64,000 nt of DNA from Chthoniobacterales bacterium. Lineage in GTDB: Bacteria > Verrucomicrobiota > Verrucomicrobiia > Chthoniobacterales > UBA10450. Where the stretch lies: positions 62,001 to 126,000 of the forward strand of contig JACDGS010000004.1 in NCBI GenBank assembly GCA_013821455.1, given 5' to 3'. The notes beneath the pieces were generated by a model. It was not told the DNA's origin and did not search any database. It saw nothing but the letters and a program-made list of their open reading frames with translations. Positions 53,281 to 55,934 of the stretch are shown piece by piece. Positions within the stretch are counted from its first letter, which is position 1. Each line of letters starts with the position of its first letter. A program made the translations under genes and the position numbers.

Positions 53281-55392
53281 ATGGCCCGCGAATATACCCT
53301 CCAGCGCGCACCGGCCGCGACGGCTATCAACATCGATTACGCCGCCGAGCTAAACGAACAGCAATACGCTGCCGTTACGGCCACACCTGGCCCGCTCCTC
53401 GTCATCGCCGGCGCGGGTTCGGGCAAGACGCGCACACTTACTTATCGCGTCGCTTACCTGCTCGAAAACGGTGTCGATCCGCGCAACATTCTGCTTCTCA
53501 CTTTCACGAATAAAGCCGCGCGCCAGATGCTCGATCGCGTCGCTAATCTCCTGCCGGTCGATGCCAGCGGACTTTGGGGCGGCACCTTCCACTCCATCGG
53601 CAATCGCATGCTCCGGCGGCACGGCAGCGCGCTCGGTTTCTCCAGCGGCTTCACCATCATGGATCGCGAAGACCAGAAGGATTTGCTCAACTCGGTCGTC
53701 GCCGGCGCTGGGATCGACCCAAAAGAAATCCGTTTCCCGAAAGGCGACGTCCTCGCGGATATTTTCAGTTTCGTGGTCAACACCGAGCGCTCGATGGAGG
53801 AGTTGCTCGCGGAAAAATTTCCTTATTTTCTCCCGCTCCTCGAACAGATCAAAGACATCCACGCGCGCTACGAGCGGCGCAAAAAATCGACCAACTCGAT
53901 GGACTTCGACGACCTCCTGGAGAAGACGCTGCGCATGCTCCGCGAGCACGAGGAAGTCGCGGAGTTTTATCGGCGACAATTCCAATTCATCCTGGTGGAC
54001 GAATACCAGGACACGAACAAAATCCAAGCCGACCTCATCGATCTTCTCGCCGCCGAACATCAGAACGTCATGGTCGTCGGCGACGATGCGCAATCGATCT
54101 ATTCCTGGCGCGGCGCGAATTTCCAAAACATCCTCGCTTTCCCGCGGCGCTATCCAAACGCGCAGGTCTTCAAGATCGAAATCAACTACCGCAGCGTGCC
54201 GGAGATTTTGCACGTCGCGAACGCCGCCATCGCGCCCAACACGCAGCAGTTCCGCAAAAACCTGAGCGCCGCGCGCCTAACGAATCACGCCCGCCCGGCC
54301 ATGGTCGCGCTAAACGACGGCGGCGAGCAGGCCCTTTTCATCGCGCAACGCATCCTCGAATTGCGCGACGAAGGCGTCGAGCTGAACGAGATCGCCGTTC
54401 TCTACCGCGCGCATTATCACGCGGTCGAATTGCAGCTCGAACTCTCGCGCCGCGGCATTCCTTATCAGATCACAAGTGGCGTTCGATTTTTCGAACAGGC
54501 TCACATCAAAGACGTGGCCGCCTTCATCCGCTTCGTCGCTAACCCGCGTGACGAAGTCGGCTTCAAACGCATGATTCGTCTCCTTCCGGGCATCGGCGGC
54601 AAGAGCGCGGAGAGCCTCTGGCAAGGTTGGGAACGTTCGTTAGGCGAAGCAGCCGCGGGCGTCGGCCCGGTTGTAGCCGGGGCCGCTGACTCAGTTGTAG
54701 CCGGGGGCGTTGACCCCGGCCGTGAGGACGGTGCCGCAACCCTCGCCGGGGTCACCGCCCCCGGCTACAACATCGCCTTCGGCGACCGTCTGCGTGCCCT
54801 GCCGGTCCCCGCCCGCTCGAAAAAATCGTGGGAACAACTCGCTTACACCCTCGATGAAATCGCGCCCGACGGACAACCAAAGCAGCCGACCGAGATGATC
54901 ATGTCGATCGTCGAAGCGATCTACGATGACTATGCCAAAGCCAATTTCGCCAACTACGAATTGCGCAAGGAAGATCTGACCCAGCTCGCCGCCTTCGCGC
55001 GCCAGTTCAAAGACATCCACGAATTTCTCTCGCAGCTCGCGCTCATCAGCAACGTCGATGCCGAGCCCGCCGTGAATCAGGCGGGCGAAAAAGAAGCCGT
55101 AAATTTATCCTCCGTGCACCAGGCGAAAGGCCTGGAGTTTCACGCGGTCTTCGTCATTTGGCTGACCGACGGCATGTTCCCCAGCTCGCGCTCGCTCGAG
55201 ACGCGCGAGGCCATTGAAGAAGAACGCCGCCTCTTCTATGTCGCCGTCACGCGGGCGAAGGACGAACTCTATCTCACCTATCCGCACATGCGTTTGAACG
55301 CGGGCTATGGCGACATGTTTCAGCGGCCCTCGCGTTTCCTAAAAGAAATCCCGACGCAACTAGTCGAGGATTGGAACGTTAGGCGGCACTGA
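53281..55392 (+). CDS. UvrD/PcrA-type DNA helicase with an in-frame palindromic-repeat insert
   Basis: 703 residues from ATG 53281 (frame open from a TTG at 53158). Superfamily 1 helicase motifs in order: Q motif LNEQQYAAVTA, Walker A AGAGSGKT, LTFTNKAARQM (Ia), LVDEYQDTN (II), VVGDDAQSIYSWRGA (III), EINYRSVPEIL (IV), VNLSSVHQAKGLEF (V) and LFYVAVTRAKDEL (VI). At about residues 460-500, after the HhH-like LPGIGGKSAES, a Gly/Ala/Val/Pro-rich stretch is encoded by a palindromic repeat (54670-54771). The helicase probably still folds because the insert is at a 2B-domain edge. Function: unwinding in repair and replication. Confidence 0.92.
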   Translation: MAREYTLQRAPAATAINIDYAAELNEQQYAAVTATPGPLLVIAGAGSGKTRTLTYRVAYLLENGVDPRNILLLTFTNKAARQMLDRVANLLPVDASGLWGGTFHSIGNRMLRRHGSALGFSSGFTIMDREDQKDLLNSVVAGAGIDPKEIRFPKGDVLADIFSFVVNTERSMEELLAEKFPYFLPLLEQIKDIHARYERRKKSTNSMDFDDLLEKTLRMLREHEEVAEFYRRQFQFILVDEYQDTNKIQADLIDLLAAEHQNVMVVGDDAQSIYSWRGANFQNILAFPRRYPNAQVFKIEINYRSVPEILHVANAAIAPNTQQFRKNLSAARLTNHARPAMVALNDGGEQALFIAQRILELRDEGVELNEIAVLYRAHYHAVELQLELSRRGIPYQITSGVRFFEQAHIKDVAAFIRFVANPRDEVGFKRMIRLLPGIGGKSAESLWQGWERSLGEAAAGVGPVVAGAADSVVAGGVDPGREDGAATLAGVTAPGYNIAFGDRLRALPVPARSKKSWEQLAYTLDEIAPDGQPKQPTEMIMSIVEAIYDDYAKANFANYELRKEDLTQLAAFARQFKDIHEFLSQLALISNVDAEPAVNQAGEKEAVNLSSVHQAKGLEFHAVFVIWLTDGMFPSSRSLETREAIEEERRLFYVAVTRAKDELYLTYPHMRLNAGYGDMFQRPSRFLKEIPTQLVEDWNVRRH
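54670..54771. repeat. Palindromic repeat embedded in frame in the helicase gene
   Basis: Arms 54694-54719 and 54746-54771 match over 26 bases with one mismatch; each carries GTTGTAGCCGG and its reverse complement. A third partial copy of the left-arm word lies at 54670-54690. The insert adds no stop codon and no frameshift in the plus strand. Same style as intergenic palindromes elsewhere in the window. Confidence 0.9.
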
Positions 55393-55407: not shown

Positions 55408-55638
55408 ATGGCCTCATCTGTAGCGGAACTCGTAAGCAAAGCCCTTGCTCTCCCCAAGCCATCGCGCGCATTTCTCGCAGAGAAGTTGCTCGAAAGCCTC
55501 GACCGCGAAGATGATTTTCCGGTCTCACAGGAATGGCTCGAAGAAATTCGGAGACGCTGTGACGACATCGATTCCGGCAAAACAGACCTGATTGCGGCCG
55601 AGGAAGTTTTTGCCCAAATCCGCGCGCGACTAAAATGA
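55408..55638 (+). CDS. Addiction-module antitoxin component (TIGR02574 type)
   Basis: 76 residues. SVAELVSKALALPKPSRAFLAEKLLESL is the characteristic opening of the addiction-module component family; the acidic remainder ends RARLK. Its stop overlaps the toxin start (ATGA). Expected to bind and silence the ParE-like toxin and the promoter. Confidence 0.87.
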   Translation: MASSVAELVSKALALPKPSRAFLAEKLLESLDREDDFPVSQEWLEEIRRRCDDIDSGKTDLIAAEEVFAQIRARLK

Positions 55639-55934
55639 TCCGAGTCCGGTTTGACCCGCGAGCGCGGGAGGAGCTGGACGCCGCTATCGCCTACTACGAA
55701 GCCGCGCAGCCGGGACTGGGACGACGGTTTGCCGAAGCCATGGAGGTTGTTGTCTGGCGCGTGCAAAAAAATCCAGAGACATACCGGGTGATCGAGGGAG
55801 AAATACGCCAGGGCCGAGTCAGACGGTTCCCGTACGGCGTTGTTTTCAGGATTCATGGCGTGGATTTGGAAATCATCGCCGTGATGCACCTTCATCGGCG
55901 GCCGGGTTACTGGCGCTCGCGGATCGGCCGATGA
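55635..55934 (+). CDS. RelE/ParE-family toxin
   Basis: 99 residues. IRVRFDPRAREELDAAIAYYE, RFAEAMEVVVWRVQKNPETYRVI (in parts) and RRFPYGVVFRIHGVDLEIIAVMHLHRRPGYW (in parts) fit the ParE/RelE fold. RelE members cleave mRNA in the ribosome; ParE members poison gyrase; which applies is unknown. Its stop overlaps the malQ start by four bases. Confidence 0.88.
   Translation: MIRVRFDPRAREELDAAIAYYEAAQPGLGRRFAEAMEVVVWRVQKNPETYRVIEGEIRQGRVRRFPYGVVFRIHGVDLEIIAVMHLHRRPGYWRSRIGR

Follow-up and report, generated by a model that had tools for sequence, protein, structure and literature searches.

The repeat at 54670-54771 of the window (the whole 64-kb stretch of DNA analysed here) is very probably a dimer of GTAG-type REP elements (a BIME) accompanied by a decayed REP, lying in frame within a tolerant loop of a core helicase gene of a Verrucomicrobiota-type bacterium, and its history is best accounted for by movement by RAYT transposases, with several insertions, short-tract exchange and turnover of the repeat arms. 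REP-like inserts occupy the same helicase site across many genera, with empty sites in sister genomes.

The repeat and its host gene

The window contains a 27-nt inverted repeat (54694-54720 versus 54745-54771, 96% complementary, separated by a 24-nt gap) and a third arm of 21 nt (54670-54690) that is 90% complementary to 54751-54771, which bears out the original prediction of a 26-base inverted repeat with a partial third arm. The palindromes are real; however, they are better described as three copies of one 23-nt unit than as an inverted repeat with a stray arm. This unit, a GTAG-tagged palindrome with the consensus GTAGCCGGGGGCGNTGACCCCGG, occurs three times at 54673-54768 (Table 1), with copy a degenerate and copies b and c perfect and facing each other. 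As read off the sequence, the stem of the unit is CCGGGG / 7-nt loop / CCCCGG, and the predicted fold of the repeat lies 6.7 sd below shuffles as RNA and 7.7 sd below as DNA.

Table 1. Positions in the window of the helicase gene and of the repeat elements within it
Feature	Position	Strand	Evidence
PcrA/UvrD-family helicase gene, ATG at 53281, 703 aa	53281..55392	+	Pfam, NCBIfam, PDB
Left junction region SLGEAAAGVGP; TCGTTAGGC word at 54637	54637..54669	+	
REP-encoded stretch, residues ~463-496 when the initial Met is not counted (VVAGAADSVVAGGVDPGREDGAATLAGVTAPGYN), predicted disordered	54670..54771	+	AlphaFold2
REP copy a, degenerate, 3 mismatches, preceded by GTT	54673..54695	+	repeat and pattern search
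REP copy b, exact GTAGCCGGGGGCGTTGACCCCGG; preceding GTT plus copy b encode VVAGGVDPG	54697..54719	+	pattern search, frame reading
Spacer separating the facing REPs	54720..54745	.	sequence, repeat search
REP copy c, exact, inverted (GTAGCCGGGGGCGGTGACCCCGG); gene reads AGVTAPGYN	54746..54768	-	pattern search, ORF

The host gene matches the Pfam models UvrD-helicase (1.1e-80) and UvrD_C (4.6e-54), its best PDB match is PcrA (1pjr), and its top NCBIfam model is PcrA, at 530 bits, under the equivalog cut-off of that model. The insert forms a loop after the GIG motif of the helicase, which we take from the established anatomy of PcrA/UvrD to be in the 2B subdomain. An AlphaFold2 model (mean pLDDT 85.6; made from a 26-row alignment, in which the mostly distant helicases of a named genome collection served solely as rows) has pLDDT below 50 at residues 459-494 and about 90 in neighboring residues, with the low stretch between well-ordered helices (439-459 and 499-504), and predicts that the REP-encoded residues form a disordered loop. 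In most pairs of filled and empty helicases the dN/dS of the flanks is 0.03-0.05 (0.19 in the pair G078/G084), values that point to a gene under purifying selection and hence functional. Purifying selection on the flanks and the predicted disorder together argue for a tolerated loop, and nothing shows the altered helicase suggested earlier, although the insert may still have some effect on it.

Two further observations concern the surroundings of the repeat. The word TCGTTAGG (usually TCGTTAGGC, e.g., at 54637) occurs 94 times in the window, on both strands and with no conserved flank, and reaches about 0.8-1.4 per kb where loci of this genus were read, in each of its five genomes, with none in the g4/g5 loci read. 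It resembles a DNA-uptake-type word; a literature search gave nothing relevant on uptake sequences in Verrucomicrobia. After the helicase gene, two small ORFs (55409-55933) form a putative pair of antitoxin and RelE/ParE-type toxin.

Copies elsewhere in the genome and associated transposases

Other copies of the repeat word, whose presence the original prediction had proposed to check, were found by pattern searches of the 4.3-Mb genome (117 contigs) from which the window comes: GTTGTAGCCGGGG occurs 17 times versus once for the reversed control, and the full unit GTAGCCGGGGNCNNTGACCCCGG has 28 matches at ≤3 mismatches versus 0. Because contig ends are only a few dozen bases away from several of the matches, 28 is probably an undercount. 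At least five genes contain in-frame REPs (the helicase, NuoL, IleS, FtsK, and a fused E1/E2 2-oxoacid dehydrogenase), and parts of an alpha-amylase-family ORF lie on two contigs that end in REPs. The intragenic share, with 5 of the 8 clearest contig-internal REP places in frame within genes, is above that usual for REPs and like the published case of Opitutus terrae. The forward REP is open in one of its three frames (VVAGGVDPG), and the inverted REP in all three.

Transposase (Y1_Tnp) genes flanked by REPs were found in related genomes. Locus L079, from a genome of the same genus (G002), is flanked by GTAGCCGGGGGCGGTGACCCCGG, with the right REP providing the TAG stop, while L286 (G088) and L300 (G095, with a transposase frame that appears broken) are flanked by GTAGCCGGGATCGNTGATCCCGG, a GGGATC variant that is also the left arm in helicases such as those of G080 and G094. 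The window's own genome has eight Y1_Tnp loci, none of which is flanked by this REP, so that no cognate RAYT was found there; it may have been lost or may sit in assembly gaps, since several REPs stand at contig ends. Some of these eight loci (L082, L086, and L096) lie near GGAG- or GTAG-type palindromes of different sequence, suggesting that the genome holds several REP families. Within L286 (1435-2061), a RAYT ORF seemingly contains an in-frame internal REP (IAVAGIDDPG) in addition to the REPs on both sides.

Occupancy of the helicase linker among relatives

The family sample comprised 83 genomes, of which 76 contain matches to the repeat family, 72 have a helicase match, and 66 have a helicase readable across the site. 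The linker holds an insert (≥14 residues) in 32 of these 66 helicases, is native in 30 (a 43-residue spacing with the consensus SLNERGEITSWGERL), and has a deletion-like remnant form of 41 residues in 4, of which three show a degenerate stem resembling that of a REP (e.g., GGGATCACGGATCCC). Linkers differ in the outgroup families of the order and mostly lack the native motif, so the ancestral linker was deduced from within the family. Filled linkers read like VAGIGDPG...PAGVTDPGYN-FGERL. As originally described, the helicase ORF stays open throughout; however, the insert replaces native residues and is not merely added to them, with about nine lost in nearly all filled alleles (G013 retains NSWSERL). 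Alignments of filled and empty sisters likewise show native bases replaced, and the target duplication considered possible at the outset is not visible. In most filled alleles a W beside the insert is changed to F, a change that looks too regular for unrelated insertions.

The view of the repeat as a mobile palindrome stands insofar as a tolerated, in-frame mobile element is concerned (other genomic copies, REP-flanked RAYTs in sister genomes, and empty sites), but occupation of the same linker in 32 of the 66 helicases shows that it is not a one-off. Recurrence of the same extra residues in homologues, which was to count against an insertion if the palindrome was lacking, is thus half borne out, although most such homologues carry REP DNA too. 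REPs are more numerous in filled than in empty genomes (Mann-Whitney p=1e-6, with no correction for phylogeny), and the in-gene arms match the resident REPs of the same genome in G007, G067, and G070. The site in G028 holds a GGAG-tagged REP, of a family with 30 matches in that genome. A REP-like target sequence as the driver of insertion was rejected, since resemblance to the REP is no greater in the native linker than elsewhere in the gene (mean tail 0.42).

Similar inserts are found at other sites. IleS contains REP dimers at one common site in the window's genome (G000), G002, and G070, replacing EPTGEPIS-like residues (3 filled of 28 read, with an empty native linker in most others), and in NuoL one common site is filled in G000 and G024 (2 of 29 read), leaving the helicase as by far the most often occupied. 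The FtsK linker is variable in length, with REP dimers in G000 and, judged by the encoded peptide, in G025 and G099; elsewhere it seems to contain other repeats. In-frame repeat-like stretches of other kinds were also seen in IleS (L263, L266, L260) and in the FtsK linker (L306-L334) of relatives, including NVGG..., VAQASSLQ..., and EAGVSPA... across the two sets.

Origin of the inserts and alternative explanations

Mapped onto a tree built from flank codons, the linker state changes 17 times, compared with an average of 21.8 for shuffled labels, and a count of irreversible gains gives 17, or 15 with weak nodes merged; overall, occupancy changes no fewer than 15-17 times. Seventeen fully independent gains are not upheld, as homologous spacers weaken this reading. 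Caution is needed with INDEPENDENCE: the 23-nt inter-arm spacer is alike in G027, G015, G020, G090, and G095, which represent three genera (z up to 7.6), so that many inserts are not independent and these five share a common origin despite intervening empty relatives. It is possible, at somewhat less than an even chance, that one or a few ancient insertions later spread between species and were lost by short-tract homologous recombination, with resident REPs overwriting the arms by gene conversion. Such a history fits the shared spacers, the regular right edge (FGE), the G027 spacer, which resembles those of g5 genomes more than that of G015 (the filled relative with the most similar flanks to G027), and the linker-adjacent residues of G078, which resemble those of the filled g5 clade; it fits poorly with the different REP family in G028, the native edge retained in G013, the flanks next to the site that remain those of their own lineage in G027/G009 and G070/G022, and the like pattern at other sites in IleS, NuoL, and FtsK. 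The inserts of the spacer group, of G028, and of G013 look unrelated to one another, which makes at least three types, and the inserts of G000, G004, G024, G067, and genus g4, which differ in spacer, may represent more. Short-tract allele exchange was probably involved in the patchy occupancy, because precise loss restoring the native linker is hard to imagine. In G087 (L114) and G100 (L106), whose flanks are ~97% identical, the helicase inserts are very different and nested, and one of them has a further REP-like type (GTAGTCCGCC TGA GGCGGA).

A more doubtful proposal is that the linker is a true recurrent target, a single codon stretch to which REP dimers of different families home, or at which they are selected, time and again. 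It would then be a natural hotspot of in-frame insertion, with weaker counterparts in IleS, NuoL, and FtsK, and the inserts might affect the helicase. It is unlikely that the insert was selected for a function, whether as an mRNA or DNA hairpin or as an extra 2B loop tuning the helicase: the much higher occupancy of the helicase than of NuoL or IleS and the strong predicted hairpin speak for such a role, while the sequence and length of the insert turn over even between the close sisters G087 and G100, the encoded residues are predicted to be disordered, and remnant and empty alleles persist. The chance that the repeat is an assembly artefact, a concern raised from the start, or a random palindrome in GC-rich coding DNA is negligible: although the assembly is fragmented and several REP copies lie at contig ends, the helicase copy is internal to a 136-kb contig, the control pattern for the full unit has no matches, and the same arrangement is found in many separate genomes.

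Under the preferred explanation of a RAYT-moved REP dimer, the element would have been inserted by a RAYT itself; REPs of the GTAG kind are thought to be moved by these Y1 transposases, which act on single-stranded hairpins. For the insert to survive, its forward arm would have to be read in the only frame without a stop and its overall length would have to preserve the reading frame of the gene. The loop, presumably neutral in function, would tolerate the insert so that the helicase stays functional. The patchy distribution is then best read as several insertions with short-tract exchange and arm turnover; the replacement of native residues at the junction, rather than a simple split, counts against this explanation, as do the regular change of W to F, the homologous spacers, and the finding of no REP-flanked Y1_Tnp locus in the window's own genome. 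With filled, empty, and remnant alleles known from dozens of related species, this core helicase provides a ready test set and a comparative case for the old question of whether REPs inserted into repair genes modify the protein or are neutral passengers, and the presence of different REP families at one site allows the RAYT insertion mechanism to be examined.

Comparison with known systems

The element fits the GTAG REP (BIME) superfamily because of its GTAG tag, GC-rich palindrome, facing dimers, and dispersed copies. As in that superfamily, the GTAG of GTAGCCGGGGGCGNTGACCCCGG lies outside the stem at one end, the palindrome is short and imperfect (stem 5-13 bp, loop 2-20), many single and dimer copies are dispersed, and a cognate RAYT is flanked by the REP (in L079, L286, and L300, not in the window's own genome). 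GTAG REPs are mostly extragenic, unlike the clearest contig-internal copies in G000; this location is typical of the class rather than defining, and intragenic copies are a described minority (PMC3733652).

Rickettsia palindromic elements (RPEs) are similar in being palindromes in frame within functional proteins, but those of R. conorii end in CGTC, and CGTC families have no associated transposase (PMC3733652). The tag of the present element is GTAG, not CGTC. IS200/IS605-type Y1 transposons have a related transposase, but the REP encodes none and would be served by one acting in trans. Target duplication is not expected for these transposons; MITEs differ from the present element, for which no target-site duplication was seen.

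Published GTAG REPs and BIMEs are closest, sharing the tag, the GC-rich palindrome, the facing dimers, in-frame copies in repair genes, and the association with RAYTs. A 2013 paper described in-frame REP insertions in a UvrD/REP helicase, uvrA, recB, and other genes, with most intragenic GTAG copies in Opitutus terrae (Verrucomicrobia), and suggested that mutation or repair is altered when repair genes are REP-tagged (PMC3733652). Its one comparable same-site case is a Xanthomonas recB pair, sites differing otherwise (PMC3733652). No case of REPs from more than one family repeatedly filling a single site throughout a bacterial family was found in the open-access literature searched, and occupation of one spot over so many species is unusual. 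Genes with internal REPs are already known; the new part is recurrence at one site, filled here in numerous species within a single family and with REPs of two kinds, unlike the published GTAG REPs.
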